Of a DNA stretch of 64,000 nt, positions 347-16,235 are shown piece by piece; within the stretch, counting starts at the first letter, position 1; every line of letters begins with the position of its first letter. This DNA comes from Blastococcus tunisiensis (GTDB taxonomy: Bacteria > Actinomycetota > Actinomycetes > Mycobacteriales > Geodermatophilaceae). Location: assembly GCF_900112815.1 (NCBI RefSeq), contig NZ_FOND01000014.1:1-64000 (forward strand). Reading direction: 5' to 3'. Under the pieces are notes generated by a model. The model did not search any database, had not been told where the DNA came from, and saw nothing but the letters and a program-made list of their open reading frames with translations. Both the position numbers and the translations under genes were made by a program.

Positions 347-641
347 AAACCGTCCGGTGCCCCGTTGGATGCGCAGTCGCCCCCGGTCGATCGTCCATTC
401 CGCCACCTCGGCATCACTGACGCTCAACGCGGCAGAAACCGCGCGCGGGCTTCACGCAGGTCCGCCTGGCCTGGCGCGCCACCGTTGCTCGTCCCGGCGT
501 ATCGGCGGCGGTGAGGCTGGGGGAGTGGGCGGCCGGTGCAGCCAACGTGACCCCGTAGCGGCACTGACCTACTCGCCATGGCGCCGTGCTTCCGACCTCG
601 GCGTCGTCGACCCGTAGGCACCGGGGGAGCCCGGCTCTCTG
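347..641. other. Gap without a recognised gene
   Basis: About 295 bases between the IS end and the DUF1016-like gene. Open frames exist on both strands, but they are arginine-rich low-complexity translations of GC-rich DNA with no recognisable domain. No convincing promoter, repeat or RNA was seen. Confidence 0.5.
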
Positions 642-677
642 GTGGACCCGCTAACGCTGTCAGTCCTCTGCGGCACG

Positions 678-1172
678 ATGCCGGGCATGGCCGGGACTGG
701 ATCGCCACCGCCCGCTGACTACGGGCAGCTGCTCGGTGACGTGCGCGAGCAGCTGCACTCCTCACGTGCCGCGGCGCACCGTGCGGTCAACGCCGAGATG
801 CAGGCGCTCTACCGGACCATCGGCCGCAGCCTGCTCGGGCGCATGCGCGAAGGCTGGTCGGTGGATGTCGTGGAGAAGTTGGGCGTAGACCTGCGTGCGC
901 AGTTCCCCAACAGCATCGCCTTCTCGCCCTCCAACCTCGACTACATGCGCCGCTTCGCCGAGGCGTGGCCTGATCCGGCCGCCCCGCTGCTGGAGCAACT
1001 GCCCTGGGGACACATTCGGGTGCTGCTGGACGAGGTGGCCGAACCGCAGCTTCGGGATTGGTACGCCGCCGCGGCGGTGCGGCACGGCTGGTCACAGGAC
1101 GTGTTGCTCAACCAGATCAAGGCCGGCAGTCACCGGCGAACGCCGCCCGCCGACAGCTCCCTTTCGCCGTAG
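678..1172 (+). CDS. DUF1016/YhcG N-terminal domain protein, lacking the nuclease half
   Basis: Resembles the N-terminal helical domain of YhcG/DUF1016 proteins, seen in the order YRTIGRSL, GWSVDVVEKLGVDLRAQFP, SPSNLDYMRRF and WGHIRVLLDEV, ending with WSQDVLLNQIKAG. Complete members are about 330-370 residues and carry a C-terminal PD-(D/E)XK nuclease. This frame stops at about 165 residues, just where that domain should begin, and no continuation was found in the other frames. It is probably a truncated remnant, though a standalone N-domain protein is possible. The start is uncertain: ATG at 678 or 687, or GTG at 642. Confidence 0.6.
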   Translation: MPGMAGTGSPPPADYGQLLGDVREQLHSSRAAAHRAVNAEMQALYRTIGRSLLGRMREGWSVDVVEKLGVDLRAQFPNSIAFSPSNLDYMRRFAEAWPDPAAPLLEQLPWGHIRVLLDEVAEPQLRDWYAAAAVRHGWSQDVLLNQIKAGSHRRTPPADSSLSP

Positions 1173-1246
1173 CGACGCAGCCGCGAGTTGGCGAGCACCG
1201 TGTCGGCGGGTTTCCGGTCGAGAGCTTCCACCCGCTGCATCCCGGG

Positions 1247-1486
1247 TCAGTCGCCGTCCTGGCCCCGGAGCCAGTCACGGATCAGCTTGATGGTCTCCTG
1301 CGGCCGGGGAGCGGCGGCGTAGACGCGGAACTCCCGGTAGCGGGGGTGGTCGATGTCCAAGGCCCGTAGGTCGTCTTCCCGGAGGCGTGCGACGTGGACT
1401 CGTCTGCCGAGCACACCGGTCCCGCCTGGCTCACCCGTCCCAGTCGGTGGCCCGCTGTCCGTCACGGTCGGGATACGGTCCGTCAC
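1247..1486 (-). CDS. Small hypothetical protein (79 aa)
   Basis: I do not recognise a family. The frame would start with GTG and encode a 79-residue protein with a Thr/Gly/Pro-rich N-terminus (about residues 1-25). A more protein-like C-terminal half follows, with the segments LREDDLRALDIDHPRYREF and IKLIRDWLRGQ, which suggests a short helical domain. It would be divergent from the exonuclease-BRCT gene, 18 bases away, with no clear ribosome binding site. The composition of its C-terminal half is the main reason to list it; it could be a degraded fragment. Confidence 0.35.
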   Translation of the reverse strand: MTDRIPTVTDSGPPTGTGEPGGTGVLGRRVHVARLREDDLRALDIDHPRYREFRVYAAAPRPQETIKLIRDWLRGQDGD

Positions 1487-1504
1487 CTCAAACCGGGAGG
1501 GGAC

Positions 1505-3139
1505 ATGGACGAGGGCAGCCGCGTACTCGCGATCGTGGACCAGGTGGACGATGCACCCGTCGTCTGGTGGGTAGACCTGGGACCCAAGATCGCCGGCATG
1601 ACCAGGCTCTGCGGAGCATGGGTGCTGGACGGGGATGACCGCATGCAGACGCTCCGGGCGCTGACCGCGTCCCGCGTCATCGTGGCGACCGCGAGCGGAC
1701 AGGCGTTGCTCGATGCCCAGCAGGTCGTGCCCGATCGGATTCTCGACACCGACGCCACCCTCACCGCCGTCATGGCGGTCCGCGACGAGCTGCAGACTGT
1801 GTACGAGAAGGCCGAGGCGGCCAGAAGGACCACGCTGACGCCGCCGCGCTGGCCATCCCTCCTGGAGCCGCTGGACACCGAGACCGCGTCGACGCCCGGC
1901 GGCGATCCCCGCACCTCACGGGCCCTGGGCATCGCCCAGTGGCTGCATTCACTGTGCGCTGCCTGGGACACCATCGAGGAGCAGCGGCTCGCCCGCCCGT
2001 ACATGCGTCCCCTCGGCGGCCCCGCCACCCGCGGGCTGCCGGTCATCTACCGCGACACGTGGCCCGATCCGGTCCGCCACGAGCCGGCTCTGTCTGTGGA
2101 GGCGCCCGAGGTTGCTGCGCTTGTGCCGGCACCGCGCACGTCGGTGGAGGACGCGGCAGCGTCGACGCTGGTGCCACTCGAAGCGCTGGACTTCGTTGCC
2201 ATCGACGTCGAGACCGCCAACGCACACCGCGGCTCAATCTGCGCCATTGGTGCGGCCGTGGTCCGCGGCGGCGTCGTGGTGTCCACCCACTCGTGGCTGG
2301 TGCGTCCGCCCGCCGGCCTGGACGCCTTCGACAGGATCAACGTCCGTCTGCACGGCATCACCGCGGACATGGTCGCTGACCAGCCCTCCTTCGCCGAGCG
2401 GCTGGACCAGCTCGTGGAGGTTGCCGGAAATCTGCCGCTCGTCGCGCATAACGCGGCCTTCGACATCGGCGCGCTCCGCGAGGCCTGCCTGGTCGCCGAC
2501 AAGGAGTGGCCGACCGCCGACTACGCCTGCTCGCTGATCCTGGCGCGGCGGGCGCTGGACCTGATCTCCTACCGCCTGCCGATCGTGGCTGCCGAGTGCG
2601 GTGTCGACGCCGGGCGCCACCACGAAGCCGGCGCCGATGCGCGCGCGTGCGCGCAGGTCGTCATCGAGATCGCGCGGCGCCGCAACGTCGGGACCCTGGC
2701 CGAGCTCCTTACCGACCTGCATGTGCTGGCCGGCCGGCTGGACGCCGCGGCCTGGCGCGGCTGCCACAGCACCCTCGGCTCCGCGGGCATAGGGCTCATC
2801 CGGCCGGAAACCGCCGTCGACGCCGACCCCGAGCACCCGCTGTACGGCCACGTCCTCGTCTTCACCGGCGCGCTGAGCATCCGCCGGCAGGACGCCTGGG
2901 ACGCCGCCGCCCGGTGCGGTGCCGTGGTCGAGAAGACCGTGACGAAGCGAACCACGATGCTCGTCGTCGGGGACGGCTTCACCGGCAGTGACCCCGCCGA
3001 CTTCACCACCGGCAAGGCGGCCAAGGCGGTGCAGCTACGTGACAACGGCCAGCGCATCGAGGTCCTCACCGAAGCTGACCTCGTCCAACTTCTCGCCGAT
3101 GCACAGACCTTCGGGGTTCGGGAGGCGGTCGTCGTCTGA
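1505..3139 (+). CDS. DEDDh 3'-5' exonuclease with C-terminal BRCT domain
   Basis: A 544-residue protein in three parts. Residues 1-225 are an unrecognised N-terminal region that begins MDEGSRVLAIVDQVDD. Residues about 230-400 are a DnaQ-like exonuclease carrying D234-x-E236 (FVAIDVET), D320 (HNAAFD), and H373 with D378 (HHEAGADA), so all DEDDh residues are present. Residues about 448-535 are a BRCT domain (GHVLVFTGAL...TMLVVGD), as in NAD-dependent ligases. Related exonuclease-BRCT proteins are thought to act in DNA repair or defence. ATG 1505 was chosen because GGGAGGGG lies just upstream at 1496-1503. A strong hairpin follows the gene. It lies in the defence-type island. Confidence 0.85.
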   Translation: MDEGSRVLAIVDQVDDAPVVWWVDLGPKIAGMTRLCGAWVLDGDDRMQTLRALTASRVIVATASGQALLDAQQVVPDRILDTDATLTAVMAVRDELQTVYEKAEAARRTTLTPPRWPSLLEPLDTETASTPGGDPRTSRALGIAQWLHSLCAAWDTIEEQRLARPYMRPLGGPATRGLPVIYRDTWPDPVRHEPALSVEAPEVAALVPAPRTSVEDAAASTLVPLEALDFVAIDVETANAHRGSICAIGAAVVRGGVVVSTHSWLVRPPAGLDAFDRINVRLHGITADMVADQPSFAERLDQLVEVAGNLPLVAHNAAFDIGALREACLVADKEWPTADYACSLILARRALDLISYRLPIVAAECGVDAGRHHEAGADARACAQVVIEIARRRNVGTLAELLTDLHVLAGRLDAAAWRGCHSTLGSAGIGLIRPETAVDADPEHPLYGHVLVFTGALSIRRQDAWDAAARCGAVVEKTVTKRTTMLVVGDGFTGSDPADFTTGKAAKAVQLRDNGQRIEVLTEADLVQLLADAQTFGVREAVVV

Positions 3140-3207
3140 CTGCCGGCCGGTGCACGACTGTCGAACACATCCCCGGCTGCAGGCGACACGATGCTGACGA
3201 CATACAG

Positions 3208-3243
3208 CAGCGACCCCCTCCCAGGTCCGGGAGCGGGTCGCTG
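3208..3243 (+). terminator. Rho-independent-type hairpin
   Basis: Arms 3208-3222 and 3229-3243 pair at 14 of 15 positions around a six-base loop (aggtcc) and are followed by TTGTGGTT. It lies 68 bases after the exonuclease-BRCT stop and fits a transcription terminator for that gene. Confidence 0.75.
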
Positions 3244-3381
3244 TTGTGGTTGATCAGGCGGTCGCGATCGCCGCAGCCACGATGGGGAGAAGCTCCGGGG
3301 CGGTCAGCTTGAAGCGCGATGTGGCAATCCGGAGCGGAAGGGCTGTACTAAAGCGTCAGCAATGGCCCACACTTTCTCGCC

Positions 3382-5373
3382 ATGACCTCCCCTCGCAGGT
3401 CGAAGCACGGGACGATCGCCGATCACCCTCGCCTCGCCGCGCAGTTCGACCCCGCGGCCAACGGGGGGTTGACCGCCGATCAGGTCAACGTCGGCACCAA
3501 CGAGAGGCTGTGGTGGAGTTGCCCGGTCGCCGCTGATCATCGCTGGCAGGCCACCGGCGCGAACCGGCTGCGCGGCACCGGGTGTCCGTTCTGTGCCGGC
3601 CAGCAGTCCTCGGTGACCAACAACCTGCTCAACTACCCGGAGCTGGTCGCCGAGTTCGACGTGGAGGCCAACGGCGGGCTCGCCCCCGCGCAGGTGGTCG
3701 CCACGACCACCAAGAAGGTGTGGTGGCGCTGTCCGGTCGCCGACGACCACCGGTGGCAGGCTAGGGGTGCAGACCGAGTCGCCGGGGCCGGCTGCCCGGC
3801 CTGCATCGGCCGGCAGCTGTCGGTGACAAACACCGTGGCCGCGTATCCGGAGCTGGCCGCGCAGTTCGACGTCGCCGCGAACGGCGGGCGCACCCCCGAC
3901 CGGGTCATCGCCACCACGAACGACCGCCTGTGGTGGGTCTGTCCGGTCGCCGACGACCACCGGTGGCGGGCCACCGGCAACAACCGGGTGCGTGGGGGCA
4001 CGCGCTGTCCTGCCTGCGCCGGGCTGCAGGCGTCGGTGACGAACAGCCTGGCGCGATTCCCCGAGCTGGCCGCGCAGTTCGACGTGCAGGCGAACGGGGG
4101 GCGCACCCCCGACCAGGTCGTCGCCCTCACGATGGAGAAGCTGTGGTGGGCCTGCCCGGTCGCAGACGACCACCGCTGGCGGGCCCCCGGAGACAGCCGC
4201 GTCCGCGGCAGCGGCTGCCCCGCTTGCGCCGGCCGTCAGGTGTCGGTGACCAACAACCTGGCCCGGTTCCCCGAGCTGGCCGCGCAGTTCGACGTCGAGG
4301 CCAACGGCGGGCGCACTCCCGAGCAGGTCGTCGCCGGCACCCACGAGCTGCTCTGGTGGGCGTGCCCGGTCGCGCCCGACCACCGCTGGCGGGCACGCGC
4401 CCAGGCGCGGGTCGCCGGGGCTGGCTGCCCGGCCTGCTCTGGCCGTCAGGTGTCGGTGACCAACAACCTGGCCCGGTTCCCCGAGGTGGCCGCGCAGTTC
4501 GACGTCGAGGCCAACGGCGGACGCACTCCCGACCAGATCGTTGCCGGCACTCCCGAGAAGCTCTGGTGGACGTGTCCAGTCGCGCCCGACCACCGCTGGC
4601 AGGCATCCGGCGACAGCCGGGTGCGCATCGGCTCCGGCTGCCCGGCCTGCGCGGGACTGCAGGTCTCAGTGACCAACAGCCTCGCCCGGTTCCCGGAGCT
4701 GGCCGCGCAGTTCGACGTCGACGCCAACGACGGCCTGACCCCCGAGCAGGTCGTCGCGGGCACCAACCGCAAGCTGTGGTGGGCCTGCCCGGTCGCACCC
4801 GACCACCGTTGGGCCGCGTCCGGCGCCAACCGGCTCAAGGGCCGTGGCTGCCCGGCGTGCGCGTTGGTCGCCATCTCCATCCGGGAGGTCCGGCTGGCCG
4901 CCGAGCTGGCCGCCGCTCTACCCGGGCTGGACGTCGAAGCGCGGCGCATTGTGATGCCCGGGAGTCGGGCCCTCGAGGCGGACATCCTCGACCGGGAGCG
5001 TCGCCTGGTTGTCGAGTATGACGGCAGCTACTGGCACGCCGGGGAGGTCATGGAGCGCCGGGACCGGGACAAAACCGCTCGGTTGACCGAGGCCGGGTAC
5101 ACCGTCATCCGGGTCCGGGAGGCGCCCCTGGCGCCCATCACCGCCGCCGATGTGACCTGCAGCGAAGAGGACCCGATCCACCTCGTCGCCGCCGCCGTCC
5201 TGGACCGCATCGCCGCGTTGCGCCCCGACCTGCTCGCCGTCCACGAGGCCGCCGTCTACCGACGGCACGGCCGTCCCCTCGGCAACGTGGACGCGGAAAC
5301 CCGGCTGGCGGAGCTGCGCCGCCGAGCCGCCCGCACTGCAGCGGAGCTCGGCAGCGACCCGACCCTGTGGTGA
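3382..5373 (+). CDS. Seven-repeat zinc-ribbon protein with Vsr/DUF559-like nuclease domain
   Basis: A 663-residue protein. Residues about 9-500 are seven tandem units of 70-71 residues. Each unit has a PELAAQFD...NGG segment, a WWxCPVAxDHRW segment and a CPxC pair, so each likely binds zinc (DUF4379-type treble-clef ribbons). Residues about 525-580 look like a Vsr/DUF559 PD-(D/E)XK nuclease: EADILD, LVVEYDGSYWH and YTVIRVRE. The last repeat ends CPACALVA instead of CPACxGxQ and leads into the nuclease part. Proteins of this build occur in defence islands, but I know of no proven function; DNA binding by the ribbons and cleavage by the C-terminus is inference. No clear ribosome binding site precedes ATG 3382. 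Confidence 0.8.
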   Translation: MTSPRRSKHGTIADHPRLAAQFDPAANGGLTADQVNVGTNERLWWSCPVAADHRWQATGANRLRGTGCPFCAGQQSSVTNNLLNYPELVAEFDVEANGGLAPAQVVATTTKKVWWRCPVADDHRWQARGADRVAGAGCPACIGRQLSVTNTVAAYPELAAQFDVAANGGRTPDRVIATTNDRLWWVCPVADDHRWRATGNNRVRGGTRCPACAGLQASVTNSLARFPELAAQFDVQANGGRTPDQVVALTMEKLWWACPVADDHRWRAPGDSRVRGSGCPACAGRQVSVTNNLARFPELAAQFDVEANGGRTPEQVVAGTHELLWWACPVAPDHRWRARAQARVAGAGCPACSGRQVSVTNNLARFPEVAAQFDVEANGGRTPDQIVAGTPEKLWWTCPVAPDHRWQASGDSRVRIGSGCPACAGLQVSVTNSLARFPELAAQFDVDANDGLTPEQVVAGTNRKLWWACPVAPDHRWAASGANRLKGRGCPACALVAISIREVRLAAELAAALPGLDVEARRIVMPGSRALEADILDRERRLVVEYDGSYWHAGEVMERRDRDKTARLTEAGYTVIRVREAPLAPITAADVTCSEEDPIHLVAAAVLDRIAALRPDLLAVHEAAVYRRHGRPLGNVDAETRLAELRRRAARTAAELGSDPTLW

Positions 5374-5530
5374 GCAACGCTTCCGGGCGACGGGCTGCGG
5401 AAGGCCGTCGGTGGCGCTCCCGCCTCCCCTCTTGGAGGCAGCCGGCCCGCATACGCGACGGCGAAATGGTTCTACCGCGGCACGCTGACGACGGAGATCG
5501 CCGGCAGACGGCCGGCGCGAGGAAGGCAAG

Positions 5531-6154
5531 GTGAGTGCGCTGGCGCGGCAGACCTGGATCGACCAGCACGTCGACATCATGGTGAACGAGCTGGCGGAGC
5601 TCGGCCTCACGGCCCGCCGGGAACCGCTCGCTGACTTGCTGCGCGAGCGCGTCCGCAGCGTCGCCGCGCAGATGGGCGTCAGCGAGCAGACCGCCCGTGG
5701 CTACCTGACCACCGACCTGCTGCGTCAGCTCGCCCGAGAGATGGCGGTGCAGCTCGTCGACGAGCATCCCGGCGCCAACCTGCGCGCCCTGCGCCGCACC
5801 GTCTCCCTCGACCGGACCGGGCTCGGCCGCCTCCTACGTGGCCTCGCCACGTCGGCCCGCATCCTCGCCGCCGGCGAGGATCACGACCGCAGCGACGAGT
5901 GCCTGGGGCTGCTGTTCGACGTCGGGATCTTCGTCCCCGACACCCCCGCGGACGATTCCGCCGCAGTCCTCGTCCCGCCCGCCGCACTGACCCGGGCCGC
6001 CCGACTGCTGAACACCGCCGCCGACGCGCTGCTGACCGGCAGCAACCCGGACCAGCTGACCGCAGCCGAGGCTGCGGACCTCAGTGCCGGGATCATGGTG
6101 GACGTGCGGTGGATGAGGGAGCTGGCTGCGACCCAGTCGCAAGGCGACGTCTGA
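5531..6154 (+). CDS. Hypothetical protein upstream of the Wadjet operon
   Basis: A 207-residue protein of unrecognised family. GTG 5531 is supported by AGGAAGG about five bases upstream. Residues about 30-60 contain VAAQMGVSEQTARGYLT, which resembles a helix-turn-helix, so a DNA-binding role is possible. The rest is rich in Ala, Leu and Asp and probably helical. No signal peptide or membrane segment is visible. It lies 162 bases before jetA on the same strand, so it could share transcription with the Wadjet genes or regulate them, but that is inference from position. Confidence 0.6.
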   Translation: MSALARQTWIDQHVDIMVNELAELGLTARREPLADLLRERVRSVAAQMGVSEQTARGYLTTDLLRQLAREMAVQLVDEHPGANLRALRRTVSLDRTGLGRLLRGLATSARILAAGEDHDRSDECLGLLFDVGIFVPDTPADDSAAVLVPPAALTRAARLLNTAADALLTGSNPDQLTAAEAADLSAGIMVDVRWMRELAATQSQGDV

Positions 6155-6316
6155 CGCGAGGCGCACTGCAGCTCAGATGACTGCCCCGTGGCGTGGCATG
6201 CGCACCATTTGCGGGACCGGCGGCCGACGGCGTGTCGGTTCCGTCACAGGGTGACGACACACTACGCAGACACACCGGGTGCGGGGGCGCCCGACGAGAC
6301 GGGGAGGGGGAACGGC

Positions 6317-7846
6317 ATGGACGTGGTGCAGCAGCACGACGACCTGCTCGCGCAACGCCGCAACCACTCCGCGTGGAAGCTGCTCGTGGCCGACAACGCG
6401 CCGCTCGTGATCGGCTTCCTCGACCGCGTGTTCCTCACCCCGAACGTGCGTCAGCTGCCGGGCCCGGAGCTCACCGAGGCGCTCGAGGACCACCTGCACC
6501 CGTTGCGTGGCGCGGACACGGCCGCGTACCCGAAGGCCGCCGAGGCGTACCTGGCGGACTGGGCCGACGCCCGCAACGGCTGGCTGCGCCGGTTCTACCC
6601 GACGGGCAGCGACGTCGCCCACTACGCGCCGACCTCGGCGGTGGAGACGGCCGCGGCGTTCGTCCGCTCGCTGGGCCGCCGGGAGTTCCTCGGCACGGCG
6701 AGCCGGCTGCTCACCGTCCGCGACCTGCTCCGGCAGATCACCGCCGGTGCGGCCACGGACCCCGAGGTGCGGCTGGGCGCGCTGGAGCGGCAGCGGGCCG
6801 AGATCGACGCGCAGATCGAGGCCATACGCAGCGGCGCCGACACCGGCCTGGACGACACCGCCATCAGGGAGCGGTACGCGCAGGCGGTCACCACCGCCCG
6901 GGAGCTGCTGGCCGACCTGCGCGAGGTGGAGGAGAACTTCCGCGCACTCGACCGCGACGTCCGCCGGCGCGCCACCACTTGGGACGGGCCGCGCGGGGAG
7001 TTCCTCAAGACGGTGTTCGGCACTACCGCCGAGATCGGCGCGTCCGATCAGGGTCGCTCCTGGCGGGCGTTCTGGGAGCACATGCTCTCGGCCGCCCAGC
7101 AGGACGAGCTGGCCGAGCTCCTGGCTGCGGTGCGCTCGGTGCCGGCGCTGACCGGCGCCGGGGAACAGGTCACCCAGCTGCTGCGCGAGGAGCTGTTCGT
7201 CGCCGCCGAGGCCACCCAGCGCACCGTCGCCTCGCTGTCGGCACAGCTGCGTCGCTTCCTCGACGAACGCTCCTGGAGCGAAGGCCGTCGCATCCACGAG
7301 GTCATCCGCGGCACCCTCGCGGCGGCGCTCGCCGCGCACGACGGCGACGTCCGCGGTCTGGGCAGCGACCTGGCCGGCCTGCGCGCCGAGTTCGCCCTGC
7401 CGCTCGAGCGGCCGCTGTACACGCCGCGGACCGAGACCCGTCTGGAGTCGACTGCCGCCGAGGATCCCGGCGTCGACCCCGGCGGCGACGATGCCCTCGC
7501 CGACCTGCTCGACATCAGTCACATCGACCTCGATGCCCTGCGCGCCGCGGTCGGCAGCACCGTCGCCGCGCACGGGGGCCAGGCCACCCTCGGCCAGGTC
7601 GTCCGCGCCCATCCGCTCACCGAGGGCCTGGCCGAGCTCGTCGGGTACCTGCAGGTCTCCGACGACGGCGGCCTGGTGTTCCCGGACCACCGTGAACGCA
7701 TCGGCTGGACCGATCCCGACGGTCGCCGCCGGCAGGCCGACGTCCCCCTCGTCCTCTTCGGCGACGCTCCGCGGTCGCCGGTGCCGAGCACCCCCGATCG
7801 CGCGTCGACGCCGCAGCCGCGCACCGCCGCGCAGGAGAGCCGCTGA
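6317..7846 (+). CDS. jetA: Wadjet anti-plasmid system protein JetA (DUF3375)
   Basis: JetA is the kleisin-like subunit of the Wadjet complex, an SMC-type machine that recognises and destroys small circular DNA. The 509-residue product shows the DUF3375 pattern: a helical N-terminal part (LVIGFLDRVFL, HLHPLRG, WLRRFYP), a long helical and coiled middle (about residues 140-240), WRAFWEHMLSAAQQDELAEL, and a C-terminal winged-helix-like segment (about 395-470). ATG 6317 was chosen because ggggaggggg lies just before it; a more upstream start lacks this. It is the first gene of jetABCD, with one base separating its stop from the jetB start. DUF3375 and DUF4194 together point to a type I-like Wadjet. 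Confidence 0.9.
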   Translation: MDVVQQHDDLLAQRRNHSAWKLLVADNAPLVIGFLDRVFLTPNVRQLPGPELTEALEDHLHPLRGADTAAYPKAAEAYLADWADARNGWLRRFYPTGSDVAHYAPTSAVETAAAFVRSLGRREFLGTASRLLTVRDLLRQITAGAATDPEVRLGALERQRAEIDAQIEAIRSGADTGLDDTAIRERYAQAVTTARELLADLREVEENFRALDRDVRRRATTWDGPRGEFLKTVFGTTAEIGASDQGRSWRAFWEHMLSAAQQDELAELLAAVRSVPALTGAGEQVTQLLREELFVAAEATQRTVASLSAQLRRFLDERSWSEGRRIHEVIRGTLAAALAAHDGDVRGLGSDLAGLRAEFALPLERPLYTPRTETRLESTAAEDPGVDPGGDDALADLLDISHIDLDALRAAVGSTVAAHGGQATLGQVVRAHPLTEGLAELVGYLQVSDDGGLVFPDHRERIGWTDPDGRRRQADVPLVLFGDAPRSPVPSTPDRASTPQPRTAAQESR

Positions 7847-7847
7847 G

Positions 7848-8477
7848 ATGGCTGCCCCCGAACTGTCCATCGCCCTGGCCCACCTGCTCCGCGGGCCGGT
7901 TCACGCCGAGGACGTCCCGGCCGTCTGGACGTCCATCACCTCGCTGGGGCCGCAGCTACGCGAGCACCTGGAAGTTCTGGGCATGCGGCTGGTCGTCGAC
8001 GACGTCGAGAACTACGCCTACCTCCGCCAGCTCGACGAGCTGCCCGAGGGCATGCCCCGCCTGGTCCGCCGGCACGCGCTGACCTTCACCGCGACCGTGC
8101 TCCTGATCCTGCTGCGCCAGCAGCTGGCCACCGCCGAGTCCGACGGCGACACGCCCCGCCTGATCGTGACCACCGAGGAGATGGTCGAGTCGATGCGGCT
8201 CTACCACCGCGACGGCACCAGCGACGAGAAGATCGCCTACGACATCACCGCGCTGGTCAACCTCGGCTACCTGCGGCGGCTGCGGGGCGAGACCGACGTG
8301 TTCGAGGTCCGCCGAATCATCAAGGCGCTGGTCACGGCCGACTGGATCGCCGAGTTCGGCGACCGGCTGCTACAGCTAATCCCGTCCGGCGAAAACGCCG
8401 CCGACCACGCCCCAGACCCCATGCCTGACGACGCGGACGCCCAGGCCGCCGCGGCCACCGAAGGAGCGCCGGCATGA
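7848..8477 (+). CDS. jetB: Wadjet protein JetB (DUF4194)
   Basis: JetB is the small kleisin-interacting subunit, comparable to MukE/MksE, of the Wadjet SMC-like complex. The 209-residue product has the DUF4194 features: VDDVENYAYLRQ near residue 50, ALTFTATVLLILLRQQL near 75, a helix around EEMVESMRLY, and a winged-helix segment ALVNLGYLRRL. The C-terminal 25 residues are an Ala/Asp-rich tail. The start is tied to the operon layout: ATG is one base after the jetA stop, and the gene end overlaps the jetC start by four bases (ATGA). Translational coupling of the three genes is likely. Confidence 0.9.
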   Translation: MAAPELSIALAHLLRGPVHAEDVPAVWTSITSLGPQLREHLEVLGMRLVVDDVENYAYLRQLDELPEGMPRLVRRHALTFTATVLLILLRQQLATAESDGDTPRLIVTTEEMVESMRLYHRDGTSDEKIAYDITALVNLGYLRRLRGETDVFEVRRIIKALVTADWIAEFGDRLLQLIPSGENAADHAPDPMPDDADAQAAAATEGAPA

Positions 8478-11400
8478 GTGCCACGCCCGTCCGTCCGCCG
8501 GTCTCCCTGGCGCCGGACGAAGGGTTCCTGCCGCTGGAGGTGCCCGGCCGCCACGGCGTGCGCCTCGAGCAGTTCCAGATGCTCAACTGGGGCACCTTCG
8601 ATACCACCGTCGCGCGCCTCGACGTCGATGGCAGCAACGCGCTGCTCACCGGCAACGTCGGCGCCGGCAAGTCGACCATCGTCGACGGTCTGACGACGCT
8701 GTTCGCCTCCGCGCACAAGGTCACCTACAACCGGGCCGCCGGGGCCGACCGCAGCGAGCGGACGCTGGCCACCTATGTGCTGGGCCACTACAGCAACGTC
8801 TACGACGAGGCCACCGGCAGCACCCGCCCTCAGTCACTGCGGGAGCGCAAGAGCGCCTACAGCGTGCTGCTGGCCCGCTTCACCGGGCTGCCCGGGCCGA
8901 CCGGCACCCTCTCCGCGGGCGCGGTGTTCTGGTTCGAGGCCACCGGTGTGGTGCACCGCCTGTACTTCACCGCCCCGGCCGCGCTGGACATCGCCGAGCA
9001 CCTGGCCGGCCACGGCGACACGAGAGCAGTCCGGGCGGCGCTGCGCGCGGCTGGCGGCGACCTGTTCGACGACAACTTCCGCAACTACCAGCGCTCCCTG
9101 TGCCGGCACCTCGGCATCAGCCCCGCCGCGCTGGACCTGCTGGTGCAGACGGTGTCGATGAAGTCCGTCGGCAACCTCACCGACTTCGTCCGCGCGCACA
9201 TGCTCGACGCCGTCGACGCCCGTGAGCGCATCGGCAAGGTCCTCGACCACTACAGCGACCTCACCCGCGCGCATGAGCTGGTTCAGACCGCCCGCCGACA
9301 GCTGGACGCGCTCACACCGGTCGCCGAAGCGGCCGCCGCCTACGACCGCGCCGTGGCCCGCACCCAGGCCAGCACCGAAGCCGCTGCCGCCGTTCCGGCC
9401 CGCGTCGAGCAGCACCGGGTCACCCTGCTCGCCGCCGCGATCGCCGAGCTGGCCGGGCAGATGCCCGCCCGCGAGGCCGCGGTCAAGGCCAAGCGGAGCG
9501 AGTTGACCGGTCAGGAGACCCGGCGCACGCAGCTGGCCCTCGCCCTGCAGGCCGGCGGTGGCGCGGAGCTCACCGAGGCTCGGCTGCGCATGGAGGCCGC
9601 CGAGACGCGGCTCGGTGACGTCCGCCGCGCGCACGTCGAGCTCGTCGCCCTGGCCGCCCAGGCCGGCGTCTCTGCCCCGGAGCGCACCGCCGACCACCCG
9701 CGGTTCCTCACCGCTGTCAAGGACGTCGCCGCCCGGCTCGCCGCCGCGGAGCGGGATCTGCGCAAGCGTGACTTCGAGGCTCAGTCGAAGCTGGCCGGCG
9801 CCCGCGAGGAGCTGCGGACCCTGCGCGAGGAGCTCGCCGCGGCCGGCAGCCGCGACAGCAACGTCTCCCTTGACGACGCCCGGCTGCGCGGCCGCATCGC
9901 CGAGGCGCTCGGACTGGCCGCCGACACCCTGCCGTTCGCGGCCGAGCTCATCGCCGTGGCCCCGGAGTCGGCCGAGTGGGAGCCGGCGGCCGAACGCCTC
10001 GTCCGCCCGTTCGCGCTGTCCCTGCTCGTGCCCGAGGAGGACTACGCCCGCGTCGCCGCCTGGGTCGACCGCGAGCACCTCGGCCGCCGGCTGGTGTACT
10101 TCCGCGTGCCCAACGTGGTGGCCGCGCCCGCCGCGCCCCGCGCCGGAACGATGGCCGCGCACCTCCACATCCGCCCCGGTACCCCGGTGAGCGCATGGCT
10201 GCGCGCCGAGATCAACCGCCGCTTCGACCACGTGTGCGTCAACGACGCGACCGAGCTGAGCGGGCACACCCGGGCGGTCACCCGCGCCGGGCAGGTCAAG
10301 GACAACGCCCGGCACGAGAAGGACGACCGCCGGCGCGCCGACGACCGCCGCCACTACGTGCTCGGGTGGGACACCGCCGCCCGGCGTGCGCACCTGACCG
10401 CGGCCATCCCGGGCGCTCAGCGCGCCGTCGAGGAGGCCGAGCGCGCACAGGAGGCCGTCGGCAAGGAGCGGAGCGGCAACGGCGACCGGGAGTACGCCGT
10501 TCGCCAGCTCACCGAGCGGTTCACCGACCCTTCCACCGTGGACGTCACCACCGCGGTGCAGGGCGCTGCCGCCGCCCGCGAACTGCACGAGAAGCTCGCC
10601 TCCCGCCCGGACATCGCCGAGCTGCTGGACCAGCAGGCCGACTGCGAGCAGCAGATCAGCACGCTGGGCAACGAGTTGTCCCGGCTGGACCGGGCCCTGG
10701 GCGCTGCCACGGAGCGGCTCGAGCAGCACCGCACCGCACACGACGCCGCCGAGCGGGCGCTGGCTGCCATGCCAGAGCCGGAGCTGTCCGAGGAGGCGAC
10801 GGCAGCGCTCGCCGACGCCCTGCGGCAGGCCGGCGTCCCGCCTGCCAAAGCGACCGACTGCGACGCCTGGGGGCAGAAGGTCACCGAGGCGCTGCGCGCA
10901 CGCGCCGCGTCGGCGTCGGCCACCCGGGAGCGCACCGGCCGGGACCTGACCAACGCGATGAAGGATTTCGCGCACTCCTGGCCGCAGATGGTCGTCGACA
11001 TCCCCAGCGACCCGGAATCCCGGGGCGAGTACCTGGCCATCCGGGACCGGCTGGCCACCGACGACCTGCCCAGCTACGAGAAGCAGTTCCGCGAGCAGCT
11101 GGAGACCAACGCCATCCACGAGCTGGTCGGGTTCAGCAACTTCCTCGACCGCGAGGCCGGCAAGATCACCGCGCGCATCGACACGATCAACGGGGCCCTG
11201 GCCGAGATCGACTACCGGCCTGGCACGTACATCCGGCTTGAGGTGGAGCGCAGCGCCGACCTGGAGGTGCGTGAGTTCCGTCAGCAGCTGCGCGACATCA
11301 CCGCCAACACCCTCCTCGGCGACGACGACACCTACGCCGAGTCCCGGTTCCTCTTGGTCAAGGAGCTGCTCGACCGCTTCCAGGGCCGCGAGGGCAACGC

Positions 11401-11986
11401 CGCCGCCGACGAGCGGTGGACCGCGCGGGTCACCGACGTCCGCAACTGGTTCTCCTTCGCCGCCTCCGAGCGGACCCGCGAGGAGGACGCCCCGCTGGAG
11501 CACTACACCGACTCCGGCGGCAAGTCCGGCGGGCAGAAGGAGAAGCTCGCCTACACCATCCTGGCCGCGTCGCTCTCCTACCAGTACGGCCTCGCCGGCG
11601 GCAACGTCTCCGCGTTCCGCTTCGTGATGATCGACGAGGCGTTCGGCCGCGGTTCGGACGAGTCGACCCGCTTCGGGTTGGAGCTGTTCACCCGCCTGGG
11701 GCTGCAGCTGCTCGTCGTCACCCCGCTGCAGAAGATCAACACCATCGCGCCGTTCGTCGACGCGGTCGGCTACGTCCGCAACGACGACCCGCGCAGCCGG
11801 CTGGTCACCATGACCATCACCGAGTACCAGGAGCAGCGGGCCCGCCGCGCGGGTCAGCGCCTCGCCGAGCGCGCGGTCACCGTCCTGCCGCCCGCGGACG
11901 CCAACGAGAGCGAGGTCGACCCCGCAGTCGACGGGACGCCGGACGGTGGCGACGATGCGGTGGCCGCGGCCGGCGGCTCCTGGTGA
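8474..11986 (+). CDS. jetC: Wadjet SMC-like ATPase JetC
   Basis: JetC is the MukB/SMC-like ATPase that powers DNA loop extrusion by the Wadjet complex. In the 1170-residue product the Walker A motif is GNVGAGKST (residues 60-68). The middle (about 280-950) is a long Ala/Glu/Arg-rich coiled coil interrupted by a hinge-like globular part (about 500-620). Near the C-terminus come the ABC signature SGGKSGGQKEKLAYT (about 1015) and Walker B FVMIDEAFGRGS (about 1050). All ATPase motifs are intact, so the machine looks active. It overlaps jetB and jetD by four bases each. The last 40 residues are a disordered Asp/Gly/Pro tail. Confidence 0.93.
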   Translation: MSATPVRPPVSLAPDEGFLPLEVPGRHGVRLEQFQMLNWGTFDTTVARLDVDGSNALLTGNVGAGKSTIVDGLTTLFASAHKVTYNRAAGADRSERTLATYVLGHYSNVYDEATGSTRPQSLRERKSAYSVLLARFTGLPGPTGTLSAGAVFWFEATGVVHRLYFTAPAALDIAEHLAGHGDTRAVRAALRAAGGDLFDDNFRNYQRSLCRHLGISPAALDLLVQTVSMKSVGNLTDFVRAHMLDAVDARERIGKVLDHYSDLTRAHELVQTARRQLDALTPVAEAAAAYDRAVARTQASTEAAAAVPARVEQHRVTLLAAAIAELAGQMPAREAAVKAKRSELTGQETRRTQLALALQAGGGAELTEARLRMEAAETRLGDVRRAHVELVALAAQAGVSAPERTADHPRFLTAVKDVAARLAAAERDLRKRDFEAQSKLAGAREELRTLREELAAAGSRDSNVSLDDARLRGRIAEALGLAADTLPFAAELIAVAPESAEWEPAAERLVRPFALSLLVPEEDYARVAAWVDREHLGRRLVYFRVPNVVAAPAAPRAGTMAAHLHIRPGTPVSAWLRAEINRRFDHVCVNDATELSGHTRAVTRAGQVKDNARHEKDDRRRADDRRHYVLGWDTAARRAHLTAAIPGAQRAVEEAERAQEAVGKERSGNGDREYAVRQLTERFTDPSTVDVTTAVQGAAAARELHEKLASRPDIAELLDQQADCEQQISTLGNELSRLDRALGAATERLEQHRTAHDAAERALAAMPEPELSEEATAALADALRQAGVPPAKATDCDAWGQKVTEALRARAASASATRERTGRDLTNAMKDFAHSWPQMVVDIPSDPESRGEYLAIRDRLATDDLPSYEKQFREQLETNAIHELVGFSNFLDREAGKITARIDTINGALAEIDYRPGTYIRLEVERSADLEVREFRQQLRDITANTLLGDDDTYAESRFLLVKELLDRFQGREGNAAADERWTARVTDVRNWFSFAASERTREEDAPLEHYTDSGGKSGGQKEKLAYTILAASLSYQYGLAGGNVSAFRFVMIDEAFGRGSDESTRFGLELFTRLGLQLLVVTPLQKINTIAPFVDAVGYVRNDDPRSRLVTMTITEYQEQRARRAGQRLAERAVTVLPPADANESEVDPAVDGTPDGGDDAVAAAGGSW

Positions 11987-13194
11987 GCCCTGCGCGTACC
12001 GCTGGCTGGGCCGGGCCGAGCACCGTCCGCGAGGCCCTGCGCGTCCGGTGGGACCGCGGCGACGTGCTGCGGGAGCTGCACACCGACCCCGCGGACCGGC
12101 GCGTGTTCCCGCTGCGCGTGCGGCTGCCCGGGCCCGGCCGCACGGAGCTGGCCGACCGGTACGCCGAGGCCACCACCTGGGCCCGCGGGCTGCGTGACGC
12201 CGCCGCCCGCGACGGCTGGACGCTCGAGGTCAGGCCGGTGCGCGCCGGCGGGCTCGGCACCCAGCCGATGCCGTACGCCGGAGTCGTCGACACCCCGGAG
12301 CTGGCGCTGCGGCTGCTCGGCCGCGACCGCGCCGGTGACGCCGCCCGCTTCGCGGCCGCGCTGCAGGCGGCCAATGCCCTCGACCCAGCGGCGCGGGATC
12401 TGGCACTGGGCCGCCCGCACGACGTGCTCGGAGCCGCCGGCGACTGGCCGCTGCTGCTGCAGCTCGCCGGCTGGATCCGCGACCATCCCCGGCCCGGCAT
12501 CCACCCGCGGCAGATCCCTGTCGCCGGGGTGCACACGAAGGTCCTGGAGCGGAACACCGGGCTGCTCAGCCGCCTCCTCGAAGCCCTCCTACCCGCCGAG
12601 GCGGTCGAGCCGGCCGCGCGCGGGTTCGCCGCCCGGTACGGCTTCGTTGAACCGGCCCGCCGCGCACGGGTCCGCGGCGCCGCTGCCGCGCTCGGCGTCC
12701 CCGTCGACGGCACCGCCGACGTCGAGTGGGACGTGGCCGCCCTCGCCGCGTTGAACCCGGCCAACTGCGGCATCACCGAGCTGCTCGTCTTGGAGAACAA
12801 GACGTCGTTCCTCACCGCCCCCACCGGCGCCGGCCGGCTCATCCTGTGGGGAGCCGGCTACGGCGCGGACGAGCTGCTCGCGGCACTGCCGTGGCGGACC
12901 GAGGTCGCCGTCCGCTACTGGGGCGACATCGACACCCACGGGTACGTGATCCTCGCCCGGGTCCGCGCGGTCGCGCCGCACGCCACCAGCGTCCTGATGG
13001 ACACAGCGACGCTACTGGCTCACCGGCCGTACTGGTCGACCGAGGCCGCACCGCGGACCGATCCGCTGCCCCACCTGACGGCGACCGAGGCGGAGGTGTA
13101 CGCCGCGTTGTGCGCGGGCACGCACGGCGTCGGCGTCCGGCTGGAGCAGGAGTTCGTCCGCTTCGATCTGGTCACGTCCGCGCTGATGTCGTAG
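11983..13194 (+). CDS. jetD: Wadjet nuclease JetD (DUF3322/DUF2220)
   Basis: JetD is the nuclease of the Wadjet system; its Toprim-containing, topoisomerase VI A-like fold cuts the DNA bent by JetABC. GTG 11983 overlaps the jetC stop as GTGA, giving 403 residues. The N-terminal part (about 1-190) corresponds to DUF3322, with DWPLLLQLAGWI and the HTKVLERN segment. The C-terminal part is DUF2220 with the Toprim signatures LLVLENKTSF (about 265-275) and VRYWGDIDTHGY (about 307-318), which hold the expected acidic metal ligands. With all four subunits intact and in frame, the operon should be functional. Confidence 0.92.
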   Translation: MSPARTAGWAGPSTVREALRVRWDRGDVLRELHTDPADRRVFPLRVRLPGPGRTELADRYAEATTWARGLRDAAARDGWTLEVRPVRAGGLGTQPMPYAGVVDTPELALRLLGRDRAGDAARFAAALQAANALDPAARDLALGRPHDVLGAAGDWPLLLQLAGWIRDHPRPGIHPRQIPVAGVHTKVLERNTGLLSRLLEALLPAEAVEPAARGFAARYGFVEPARRARVRGAAAALGVPVDGTADVEWDVAALAALNPANCGITELLVLENKTSFLTAPTGAGRLILWGAGYGADELLAALPWRTEVAVRYWGDIDTHGYVILARVRAVAPHATSVLMDTATLLAHRPYWSTEAAPRTDPLPHLTATEAEVYAALCAGTHGVGVRLEQEFVRFDLVTSALMS

Positions 13195-13195
13195 G

Positions 13196-13223
13196 CGCCG
13201 GGAGGTGTCGAGGACTCCTGGCG
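13196..13223. terminator. Hairpin between jetD and the patatin remnant
   Basis: Arms 13196-13204 and 13215-13223 (CGCCGGGAG with CTCCTGGCG) pair with one G-T. It starts two bases after the jetD stop, between convergent genes, and could end both transcripts. There is no clear T run. Confidence 0.45.
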
Positions 13224-13232
13224 GCCCGCGCC

Positions 13233-14287
13233 TCAGCCGAGCAGGGCCGGGGTGTAGTGGTGGAGCAGTAGGCGTGTCAGCTGCTCCCCGCGGGTGGTGA
13301 CGGCGCCGAGGTCCTCGTCCTTCATCGCCTTGAAGTTCGTGGGGTATCCGTTCACGCGCTCCAGCGGCACCAGCCCAGGGGCGGCCATCGGCAGCTTGTC
13401 GTCCTTCTGGCCGAGGTAGGCGTGGACTACGCCCTGGAACTGCCCGGGGCCTGCGGAGTTGTGCAGCCGCGCCCGGGTGCCGTCCTGGGTCCCGCGGTAG
13501 GTGATGTCGAAGCTGCGCATGAGCCGGAACGGCAGCACCCGAGCGTTGGATTCGCCCGGCTCCTGGCGGCCGGCGTCGGACGCGATCACGTAGTCGACCG
13601 GGTACACGTGGTCGGTGAACGCCCGATCGCGCCCGGACTCGAGCACGGACAGCCCTAGGTTGTCGTAGACACCCCCGTCGGTCAGGGCGACCCGCTGGCG
13701 CTGTGTCCGGCCGCGGCGCTCGAAGGTGTACGTCCTCTGCACCGCCGGCAGGAGCAGCGGGAAGGCGGCGCTGGCCGCGACGGCCTCCGCCACCCGGATG
13801 GGCTCCACGATGCGCCCGTACATCCAGCTGGCACTGACGTCGCTGCCGAAGCGGACCGCGCCCGGCCGGTGATCAGGTCGGTGGCCGAGAGCACCGTGGC
13901 CAGCCCGGGGTGGGTGACGTCGGGCAGGTGCCTGTCGCCGAAGGCGCGGTCGGCGAGCGCGGCGGCGAGCACATCGGTGCGATTCCGGCTGGCTCGTTCG
14001 CGGCCGCCGGGACCGGCGGCCGCGACGAGGTCGCCGGCCCTGCGGGCGAGGCGCGCAGGAGACAGGGTTCCTGTGGCGAGCTGCAACTGCAGGCCCCGCC
14101 GCAGGAGCGCCACGACGTGCTCGTCGAACTCATCGAACCGCGCGGGGCCGTAGGCCCACAGTGCGGCCAGCAGGCTTCCGCCGCTGATGCCGCTGATGCC
14201 GCTGACGACGGTGACCTTGTGCAGGACGCCGGTGTCGTGAGTGGGGTCCGGGGGTCCATCGCGTGCCGCAGACTGGCCGAGAACCAC
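13233..14287 (-). pseudogene. Patatin-like phospholipase remnant, frameshifted and 5'-truncated
   Basis: Two frames on this strand together make most of a patatin-like lipid acyl hydrolase. The upstream frame (from 14287) carries VTVVSGISGISGGSLLAALWAYG with the serine elbow. The downstream frame (to 13233) carries AVAASAAFPLLLPAV and the ALTDGGVYDNLG motif with the catalytic Asp. They join near 13855-13862, where one base appears missing: ATDLITGRA must pass to VRFGSDVSASWMYGRI. The N-terminal glycine-rich oxyanion motif is also absent, since the frame begins where the integrase terminator lies. The gene is therefore broken twice. A sequencing error could explain the frameshift but not the missing start. 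Confidence 0.75.
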
Positions 14288-14319
14288 CGCGGGCCCACCG
14301 GGGTACCGGTGGGCCCGCG
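14288..14319 (-). terminator. Strong hairpin downstream of the integrase gene
   Basis: Arms 14288-14301 and 14306-14319 pair perfectly over 14 bases around GGTA. The hairpin lies 11 bases after the integrase stop on the minus strand. It also sits at the exact 5' edge of the patatin remnant. Confidence 0.7.
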
Positions 14320-14330
14320 ACGGAGGTGGG

Positions 14331-15659
14331 CTACTGCTCGTCGTGCAGCGGGCGCTCGAAGAGCTGCTGCTTCAGCTTGGCCAACTCGTCCAGGCGCTCC
14401 TTGAGGTAGTGGTCGGTGGAACTGCCCCCGTCGTGCGCCAGGTGGAGCTTGGCGGCCTGCTGGTCGGCCGCCTTGAACACCATGCGTCCGCTGGTGTGGC
14501 GGATGTCGTGGCAGCGGAGCTCGACGCGCTCCGTCCACGGCAGGTGGCGACGGACCCGGGCGAACAGCCCCTCGATGCGCTTGCGCGAGATGGGCCGGAC
14601 CGTGCGCGAGACGAAGTAGCCGTGCTCGTCGAAGGTGTCGACGGGCCGGCCGTAGAAGACGGGGGAGGACCCCGTCAGTGCGGGGATGCCGTGCCGGCGG
14701 TCCTCCTCGGAGGCGTCCGGCGGCGCGGCGACACGGGGTCCGCGGGTGAGCGAGTGGATGACCAGGTCGGCCATGTGCGTGCTGGTGGTGGGCCGGTACC
14801 GCCAGGTCTTCTTCTTCTTGTCCCAGTAGCGGATGCGGCAGCCCTCGACGTCGAGCCCGCCGCAGGTCGTGTCCAGCAGCGCACCGCGGCGGACGGCCTG
14901 GATGAGCAGGTGCCGCAGGATGAGCCCGTCGAGCGCGGGGTCCTGGCCGGTGCTGACGGCGGTGCCGTAGACCTCGACGAACTCCTGGTCGGTCAGCGAG
15001 CGCGCTCCGGCCTCCTGTCGGGGCGGCAGCTTGACCTTCAGCGCCGGGTTGGTGGCGGCTTTCTCCTCGTCGACCAGCCACGTGAACATCCACCGGGTCG
15101 CCTGGATGAACTGCTCGCGGGCCCCGCGACCGTCGCTGTGCAGCAGGTTCCGGCCGGCTGCCTCGCGCTTGACGTTGCGGGCGACGGTGCGCTTCAGTCC
15201 GCGGCGCTGGGCCCACCAGGCGGCCTCGGCGATGACGCCGCGGGTCATCTCCTTGACCGCCAGGTCAGGCACGCCGAGGTAGCGGTCGGCGCAGTCGCCG
15301 TGCAGCTCGCCGTCGGGCATCGCGCACACCTCGGCGTGTCCGTCGTCACCGCCGGGGCAGGGGCACGGCCCGGTCGCGCACGCCGGGCAGGGGCACGGGC
15401 ACACGTCGGGCAGCCCGTCGACGAGCAGCCGCAGGTAGGGCGCCCAGGTCTTCTCGCTGTCGGGCAGGTCCTGGCGCAGGGCGGTGGTCGCCTCGGCGAC
15501 CGCCTGCCGCACTCGGTAGAGCTGGGCCTGGGCCGGGAGCATCGTCTCGACGACGGACGCGTCGAAGCCCTGCGCGAGCAGGGTCGCGCGCATGGCGTCG
15601 CGGGTGGCCTCGTGCACGGCGTCGTCCGAGCGCGTCGCGGGGGTGGGGATGGTGGTCAT
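14331..15659 (-). CDS. Tyrosine-type site-specific integrase with cysteine-rich insert
   Basis: A 442-residue phage-type integrase, probably the enzyme that inserts the island at the neighbouring tRNA gene. The catalytic set is visible: Arg in LLIQAVRRGALL (R257 or R258), H384 and R387 in CHDIRHTSGR, His in LHLAHDGG (about 409) and the nucleophile Tyr418 in TDHYLKERL. The N-terminal core-binding part spans about 130-215. Residues 87-123 hold eight cysteines (87, 89, 91, 94, 99, 101, 112, 123) with few other residues between, an unusual insert that could bind zinc. It lies directly downstream of the AbrB-like gene on the same strand. Confidence 0.88.
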   Translation of the reverse strand: MTTIPTPATRSDDAVHEATRDAMRATLLAQGFDASVVETMLPAQAQLYRVRQAVAEATTALRQDLPDSEKTWAPYLRLLVDGLPDVCPCPCPACATGPCPCPGGDDGHAEVCAMPDGELHGDCADRYLGVPDLAVKEMTRGVIAEAAWWAQRRGLKRTVARNVKREAAGRNLLHSDGRGAREQFIQATRWMFTWLVDEEKAATNPALKVKLPPRQEAGARSLTDQEFVEVYGTAVSTGQDPALDGLILRHLLIQAVRRGALLDTTCGGLDVEGCRIRYWDKKKKTWRYRPTTSTHMADLVIHSLTRGPRVAAPPDASEEDRRHGIPALTGSSPVFYGRPVDTFDEHGYFVSRTVRPISRKRIEGLFARVRRHLPWTERVELRCHDIRHTSGRMVFKAADQQAAKLHLAHDGGSSTDHYLKERLDELAKLKQQLFERPLHDEQ

Positions 15660-15722
15660 GCGGAGTTCTCCAGTCGTGGCGGCGGCACCGGTCGTGCCGC
15701 GGACGTGAAGGGACGGTGCGGG

Positions 15723-16235
15723 TCAGCGGACGATGCGCAGTCGCCCGCCGGCGTCGCCGGCAGCGGCCGGGACCGAGGCGGCCGGCGCGACGCCGTCAGC
15801 ACCGAACTGCTCGTCCCCGGGGGAGGCGGACGCGGTGGCCGCGGGGCGACGAAGCCCGTCGAGCAGGTCGCCGATGCCGGCCGACAGCCGGCTGGCGGCG
15901 GTCACGGTGATGACGCCGCGGTCGGTGTCGAGGACGGCCAGGACGTCGGCGCCGTCGGGGATGCCGGCCTCACGCCGGACCGCGGCGGTCAAGGTCAGCC
16001 GGCCGCGAGCATCCAGCGGAAGGGCGGCGACGGCGAAGCCCGGCCGCGGGCGCTCGGCGCTGCCGGGCAGGAACACGGTCAGCACCGCCCCGTCGCGCTC
16101 GGCCGGCGCGGGAGCCGCCGCAGCCAGCGTGAGCGGCAGCATGAGCCGGCCCTTGGCGTCGAGCATGCGGATGAGCGCGTTGCTGCGGGGTGCGGCCGGG
16201 TCGGCCGGCCGCACCCACATCCCGGAGAGGTCCAC
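15723..16235 (-). CDS. AbrB/SpoVT-type DNA-binding domain protein, probably 5'-frameshifted
   Basis: The segment LDARGRLTLTAAVRREAGIPDGADVLAVLDTD is an AbrB/MazE/SpoVT swapped-hairpin DNA-binding domain (about residues 73-110). A degenerate copy, MLDAKGRLMLPLTLAAA, sits near residue 24. The listed GTG start gives 170 residues. However, the frame stays open and protein-like for about 35 codons upstream without a start (AASWAGVGPLLAAVGERAPA), and another frame supplies a plausible N-terminus from ATG 16564 (MGESDAAALRAVLATAD). The two would join near 16345-16360 if one indel is assumed. It lies 63 bases upstream of the integrase and may control it. Confidence 0.6.
   Translation of the reverse strand: MDLSGMWVRPADPAAPRSNALIRMLDAKGRLMLPLTLAAAAPAPAERDGAVLTVFLPGSAERPRPGFAVAALPLDARGRLTLTAAVRREAGIPDGADVLAVLDTDRGVITVTAASRLSAGIGDLLDGLRRPAATASASPGDEQFGADGVAPAASVPAAAGDAGGRLRIVR

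Follow-up and report, generated by a model that had tools for sequence, protein, structure and literature searches.

The gene at positions 3382-5373 of the window (the 64,000-nucleotide stretch of Blastococcus tunisiensis DNA that was analysed) probably encodes a long-array, free-standing homing-type endonuclease that is now carried by an integrative island. This reading was adopted because of the insertion behaviour of its relatives and the kinship of its nuclease domain. The domains, active-site residues and fold match of the protein, the transfer of the island and the single-gene insertions of relatives were established by the analyses given below.

The gene encodes seven zinc-finger units followed by a Vsr-type nuclease

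The features of the gene are as follows.

3382..5373, + strand: array-nuclease gene, ATG ORF of 663 aa (seven PF14311 units, a Vsr/DUF559-type nuclease and a helical tail)
3433..3603, + strand: PF14311 unit 1, 61.3 bits
3643..3810, + strand: PF14311 unit 2, 59.5 bits
3853..4023, + strand: PF14311 unit 3, 51.6 bits
4066..4236, + strand: PF14311 unit 4, 54.4 bits
4276..4446, + strand: PF14311 unit 5, 57 bits
4489..4656, + strand: PF14311 unit 6, 53.3 bits
4699..4863, + strand: PF14311 unit 7, 55.8 bits
4864..5181, + strand: Vsr/DUF559-type nuclease core, residues about 495-600 (PF04480, active-site residues, Foldseek)

The gene contains seven tandem DNA copies spaced at 210, 210, 213, 210, 210 and 213 nt, and adjacent units are 64-85% identical at the DNA level. 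The Pfam profile PF14311 matched the protein in seven stretches (E 4.8e-105, 344.2 bits versus a cut-off of 24.5), a repeated match above the curated cut-off that makes the protein a member of this family and bears out the seven 70-71-residue repeats described in a sequence-only reading of the gene. These seven units are the only matches to the profile in the whole host genome. Every unit has the zinc motif C-x5-H plus C-P-x-C, and the four predicted zinc ligands (C, H, C and C) were invariant in all 32 units of four close arrays. The set of zinc ligands per repeat in the sequence-only reading was therefore upheld, but not its assignment to the zinc ribbons, as the current Pfam name for PF14311 (DUF4379) is probable treble-clef zinc finger. 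The job it gave the array, that of a modular nucleic-acid binder, is likely.

Matches to the TAL_effector and Anti-TRAP Pfam families were rejected as spurious, there being no passing stretch in the window protein. TAL_effector scored 27.1 bits versus a cut-off of 28; a relative (L040) scored 35.1 bits, likewise with no passing stretch. The array ORF is overlapped by a 429-aa minus-strand ORF in a different frame, and one reverse frame read across 3382-5373 contains two stops. In the array of another relative (G079) adjacent units are nearly identical (DNA identity 0.96), which suggests that arrays may grow by duplication.

The C-terminus of the protein matched PF04480 (DUF559) with 23.7 bits versus a cut-off of 20.6. 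Residues D534, E545, D547, H552 and K564 were invariant in the eight aligned proteins and are kept in 32-35 of the 36 genome and plasmid nuclease matches. These conservation figures were taken from the genome and plasmid rows because the viral set (80 of 89 matches kept, 79 loci) was found entirely through the motif EYDGx[YF][WY]H, which biases residue conservation in that set. In four of the 36 nucleases (L052, L055, L056 and L057) D-x-D-P-x-x-W-H replaces E-x-D-G-x-x-W-H, and these proteins are possibly inactive or altered.

Structures were modelled with AF2 both for the last unit plus the nuclease (18 sequences; mean pLDDT 75.5, pTM 0.56) and for the full-length protein (mean pLDDT 84.4, pTM 0.42), and the latter model repeats the secondary structure of the unit seven times. 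The alignments of relatives used 24 of 50 and 17 of 50 listed proteins, plus the window protein. The best Foldseek match of the repeat was 6sga_Fd, mt-SAF33 (DUF4379), at an rmsd of 1.4 A, with TM scores by target length of 0.62-0.66 over three entries. For the nuclease, Foldseek returned Vsr (1cw0 and 1vsr) and the catalytic domain of I-Bth0305I (3r3p) with a probability of 0.97 and E values of 0.02-0.06; the only two rows at E < 0.001 were both the DUF4379 protein of 6sga_Fd. A profile built from the alignment of units plus nuclease gave a firmer nuclease match when searched against the PDB: I-Bth0305I (3r3p, 'Mobile intron protein') was found at E 6e-7 and ranked above Vsr, which had E about 0.3, among the nuclease entries; mS66 was likewise matched. 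The above-cut-off PF04480 match, the fold matches and the active-site residues place the domain in the Vsr/DUF559 branch of the PD-(D/E)XK nucleases, and so the C-terminal fold proposed from the letters alone held when structures were predicted.

The 3r3p profile match and the PHROGs matches of the window protein, which are labelled endonuclease, HNH endonuclease and homing endonuclease, identify the domain as one of the homing-nuclease kind. With PADLOC-DB 2.0.0 only a weak homing-endonuclease (HEase) match was obtained (E 0.027), and the protein belongs to no known defence system of that database. It also falls outside the NCBIfam vsr family (TIGR00632), scoring 15.5 bits versus a cut-off of 97.85.

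The window copy lies in an island shared with Goekera deserti

By sequence comparison, the window copy is now carried by an integrase-bearing tRNA-Leu island that was transferred horizontally. The other carrier, Goekera deserti (G024), is also of the family Geodermatophilaceae and is of a separate genus by the genome grouping used. The features of the island are as follows.

348..16765: segment of the horizontally transferred island (99.1-99.5% identity with Goekera deserti where aligned), with tRNA-Leu at its end
1247..1434, - strand: remnant of a second, divergent array-nuclease gene (blastn blocks, ORF and Pfam of the intact Goekera copy)
14331..15659, - strand: phage-type integrase of the island (PF00589, 25.1 bits, just below the cut-off of 27.1)
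16678..16765, - strand: tRNA-Leu(gag), island edge (ARAGORN)

The array-nuclease gene common to the two genomes differs at eight aligned residues. Goekera has two array nucleases, one on either side of the exonuclease gene; the second (L041 14045-15919, minus strand) encodes 624 aa, is 34% identical over the match and stands before the DEDDh gene. In the window this gene is reduced to the remnant at 1247-1434 by an internal deletion of about 1.68 kb relative to the intact Goekera copy, and the blastn blocks around it are 348-1395 and 1393-4517. An apparent insertion of the second array gene in Goekera at window position 1394 was rejected; as the two ends of the gene persist in the window, it is the window that carries a deletion. 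No exact repeat of the tRNA-Leu 3' end of at least 14 nt, such as would mark an attachment site, was found in the window, L041 or L042; note that the window starts at the contig edge and that the left end of the island lies outside it.

The island also encodes a DUF1016_N protein, a DEDDh-BRCT protein, the Wadjet system JetABCD and a protein with a weak patatin-like match. The DEDDh exonuclease-BRCT protein (window 1394-3139) matches the PADLOC candidate family PDC-S48. The adjacency to Wadjet and the exonuclease had led the sequence-only reading to an undescribed defence role. Wadjet and the DEDDh gene adjoin the array nuclease only in the island shared by the window and Goekera. When the island proteins were used as queries against 39 other array-gene loci (several of them short), no Jet protein and one weak DEDDh match were found. 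The gene thus lacks, across the 39 loci outside the Goekera island, the conserved linkage to JetABCD of a Wadjet accessory gene, and a defence partner by linkage was rejected on these grounds. Neighbours differ from locus to locus among the homologues, and the suggested role is not supported by the comparison.

Relatives are widespread and vary in architecture and neighbours

Protein matches were found in 44 of 196 related genomes, that of the host included, and in 24 of the 44 only the nuclease end was matched. A search for the same architecture by six-frame survey of the collected loci with local profiles gave 123 clusters with units, of which 100 also had a nuclease: 27 in genomes (the window and a split Goekera copy included), 8 on plasmids, 63 on viral contigs and 2 in named phages. 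Where a cluster has a single nuclease, it comprises 1-11 units in genomes, 6-10 on plasmids and 1-8 on viral contigs. In 78 of the 100 clusters the nuclease follows all the units, in 17 it stands between units and in 1 it comes first; the other 4 have two nucleases. In L093 (5938-8181), L049, L057 and L086 the nuclease is flanked by a zinc array on each side within one ORF, as if both sides of the cut site might be read. At least two genes with units and nuclease are present in 16 of 49 viral loci having such genes, some of these loci being near-copies.

Of the 100 clusters, only 11 extend over more than one frame, some being pairs of neighbouring genes, so there is no conspicuous sign of the decay that selfish nucleases should show; L087 spans six frames. 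An impression that many plasmid copies are broken came from an incomplete plasmid gene table and was dropped, as the six-frame survey showed one open frame for each of L082, L083 and L085. Two of the record sets were covered to the extent of 20 of 32 and 40 of 83 records.

No neighbour was common to all eight annotated plasmid regions, and two related Rhodococcus plasmids have AbiE and pilus genes in common near the array gene. A 2.8 kb block, 88% identical, is common to two of the closer relatives (G083 and G106), whose surroundings otherwise differ. The block consists of the array gene and a divergent HEPN-like gene (L038 12045-12776 and L039 9043-9774), which stands beside the array gene in two genera; its 243-aa product has the motif RNALAH (HEPN-like by eye) and a DUF4145 match below the cut-off (E 0.041). 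Two genomes of a single genus (L039 11852-14460 and L044 10447-12548) have, downstream of their array genes, a pair of genes for an HNH_2 protein of 303-311 aa and a protein of 371-375 aa without a Pfam match, the pair having been scanned on L039.

A few unit positions behave as expected of a specificity patch

The hypervariable columns were initially picked from the arrays under test, which made that choice circular, and the selection was repeated with 58 other arrays (283 units) outside the close family. Each of these arrays has at least three units, and ten close entries, the window included, were left out. Unit positions were ranked by within-array mismatch, and the variable residues were located by reference to the predicted secondary structure. 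Most unit columns vary in the 58 arrays, and four of the eight columns first chosen recur in the top six. In the four close arrays within-array pN/pS at these six positions was 1.22-1.56 versus 0.44-0.58 elsewhere, and in none of the four was the observed pN reached by any of 500 random six-column sets.

Between orthologues the same positions are held unit by unit. In the comparison of G083 with G106 the six positions had a pN/pS of 0.23, like the remaining positions, and matched at 0.93 between units of the same index versus 0.19 between units of other index. When the window array was compared with G083 and G106 the same-index match was 0.60 versus 0.25-0.26, and the patch had diverged faster than the rest of the unit (pN/pS 0.71-0.89 versus 0.38). 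Over the three comparisons only 1-3 of the 5,040 index orders were as good as the true order, the true order counted. The rest of the unit is also orthologous (0.76-0.89 at the same index versus 0.65-0.68), and the evidence for a patch is the contrast between patch and rest, not orthology itself. What is new is that variable positions with pN/pS above 1 within an array are nonetheless kept unit by unit between the closest orthologues. Within-array variation together with retention in orthologues is as expected of a putative specificity patch, and the data fit modular recognition by residues that differ between units, are held in near relatives and drift faster in distant ones. In unit 7 the candidate patch residues are N462, S480, A482, K486 and R488 plus neighbours.

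Relatives are present or absent as single genes at uninterrupted sites

Presence or absence at an otherwise uninterrupted site was seen for four relatives (L052, L049, L168 and L169). In G058 (L052) a four-unit array-nuclease ORF (9071-10645) lies within 1,643-1,646 nt of extra sequence, where three congeners (G018, G028 and G035) lack the array gene and have 15, 13 and 12 nt instead. The array gene is located between two open convergent genes. One is dapC (TIGR03539, 513.5 bits versus a cut-off of 355.65), which aligns over its 365 residues in all three congeners. The other belongs to no known family and aligns in the three over residues 1-264, 1-265 and 19-256 of 266. The 9-nt repeat CAGCTCAGC is present at both junctions of the filled allele, a raw observation given with no chance estimate. 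Among the matches listed, relatives on the same side of dapC were also found in G026, G033 and G078, which are of another genus by the grouping.

A five-unit gene with the canonical active site in G041 (L049) lies in about 2,170 nt flanked by genes for an M18 aminopeptidase and an alpha-amylase-family protein; the corresponding stretch in G018 is 99 nt long. Among the matches listed, G018 was the one plainly empty congener of three, and no left flank was found at the site in G035. In G028 the L049 site holds other cargo of 1,537 nt (L274 1533-3069) with SDR-like and TetR-like ORFs by eye, which suggests that the site may be an insertion hot spot.

In the phages, the Jedunavirus KpV52 gene, annotated as a homing endonuclease, takes up 1,451 nt at a point where 14 nt are present in two sister phages, and the Jedunavirus Geezett gene lies between two copies of a terminator stretch that is single in two sisters. 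The Jedunavirus genes have DUF723-type units and are distant from the window protein (24-28% among the matches listed).

No empty site was seen for the window copy, which lies inside an island found in two genomes, and neither flank searches in the closer relatives G083, G079 and G106 nor the comparison of Rhodococcus plasmids gave a clean one. A chromosomal candidate for G083 was rejected, its left flank being duplicated at C14 without an array and its right flank mismatched. Judged from the alleles compared, single-gene insertions in phages and chromosomes form what appears to be the pattern of free-standing homing genes.

Discussion

In the mechanism that we propose, the seven treble-clef units would form a DNA-binding array in which a few variable residues close to the zinc site let each unit add to the specificity. 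DNA next to the bound site would then be cut by the C-terminal Vsr-fold PD-(D/E)XK domain, and the array-nuclease gene would spread when repair uses the copy that bears it as template, with the window copy travelling in the integrase-bearing tRNA-Leu island. We infer that it is DNA rather than RNA that is bound, that cleavage is double-stranded, that each array has one target and that the window copy homes. Also in favour of homing are the viral loci with two or more such genes, the lack of a neighbour common to the eight plasmid regions and the putative specificity patch. Against it speak the altered nuclease motif of L052, the single plainly empty congener at the L049 site, the distance of the Jedunavirus genes, the scarcity of broken clusters, the faster divergence of the patch between the window array and G083/G106, the modest Foldseek E values and pTM, and the failure to find an empty site for the window copy or its closer relatives.

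A homing-type nuclease is the stronger reading and a defence role the weaker. In the latter the island would have domesticated a homing-type nuclease as a weapon of defence or of conflict between elements, cutting phages or competitors at array-specified sites and acting alongside Wadjet and the DEDDh exonuclease. The make-up of the integrase/tRNA island (Wadjet, the DUF1016_N protein and the PDC-S48 candidate) speaks for this, as does the flanking of the exonuclease gene by array nucleases on both sides in Goekera. Some relatives adjoin an HNH_2 gene, AbiE genes or the HEPN-like gene, and homing-nuclease domains are reported to take part in phage-satellite conflict (PMC10448857). We nevertheless consider it unlikely: the 39 other loci gave only the one weak DEDDh match, neighbours vary, PADLOC gives no defence family beyond the weak HEase match and the single-gene insertions of relatives require no defence role.

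An array that binds RNA would agree with the repeat fold, since the best match (mt-SAF33) and also mS66 are PF14311 proteins solved in trypanosome mitoribosome assembly particles. The nuclease kin, however, are DNA enzymes and the relatives are inserted at the DNA level, and we regard an RNA-binding array nuclease as improbable. Still less credible is a Vsr-like enzyme of mismatch or short-patch repair with an added DNA-binding array. The Vsr fold and the weak NCBIfam vsr match point that way, but the score is far below the family cut-off, no methyltransferase was found among the subset of window neighbours scanned with Pfam, and the distribution is patchy, with the many genomes matched at the nuclease end only.

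The homing reading corrects a tempting defence reading. If it is true, targeted nucleases made of repeated zinc units occur naturally in bacteria and phages in large numbers and have been little studied, and the conserved order of variable residues in orthologous arrays together with the empty sites of relatives would give array-target pairs for a recognition code. We also put forward, as a speculation we think somewhat less probable than its converse, that PF14311 arrays in general are natural modular DNA readers of a kind separate from C2H2 fingers and TAL repeats. A fixed short stretch would be read by each 70-residue unit through its own patch, arrays would grow and be re-targeted by unit duplication, and those fused to a Vsr nuclease, which in some proteins lies between two arrays, would be ready-made targeted nucleases.

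Comparison with known systems

The single-unit fold is that of the DUF4379 proteins mt-SAF33 and mS66 of the trypanosome mitoribosome, which, unlike the window protein, are ribosome or assembly proteins by name and have no nuclease domain in the search output. The likeness to TAL effector repeats is in idea only, that of repeated units with variable residues; the fold of the TAL repeat is unrelated to that of PF14311 units.

The nuclease fold is shared with E. coli Vsr (1cw0 and 1vsr) and with Caulobacter VsrA, which has DUF559 (PMC12907096). Unlike the window protein, which is far below the NCBIfam vsr cut-off, these enzymes have no zinc-finger array named in the accessible part of that report. 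The likeness to I-Bth0305I (3r3p), by sequence profile and by fold, is of the Vsr-like catalytic domain, the match covering that domain alone.

Modular zinc fingers are described for T5orf172 homing genes of ICP1-like phages in PMC10448857, where beads-on-a-string fingers of CapR/DUF723 type are proposed to set the target and to recombine between repeats, an arrangement like that of the array discussed here (that paper's text has DUF4397, a figure legend DUF723/4379). The window nuclease differs from these enzymes in its Vsr fold. The T5orf172 nuclease is of the GIY-YIG type.

Long chromosomal DUF4379-Vsr arrays, chromosomal empty sites and a specificity patch were not reported in the literature searched, with most subscription journals outside its coverage. 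The closest published genes are four phage group II intron homing genes (PMC12350094, NAR 2025), which encode 3-5 zinc-finger-like domains followed by an EDxHD/Vsr-like domain. Those domains are described there as distantly related to CapR, DUF4379 and DUF723, with thousands of UniProt matches. The common ground is repeated zinc-finger-like domains of about 60 aa followed by a Vsr-type nuclease. In contrast to the distant domains of the intron genes, the window gene has seven units above the Pfam cut-off, and it appears to be free-standing in an integrative island. The architecture of zinc repeats plus a Vsr domain is therefore already in print for phage introns (PMC12350094), and the window gene is a long-array variant of this recently published kind.
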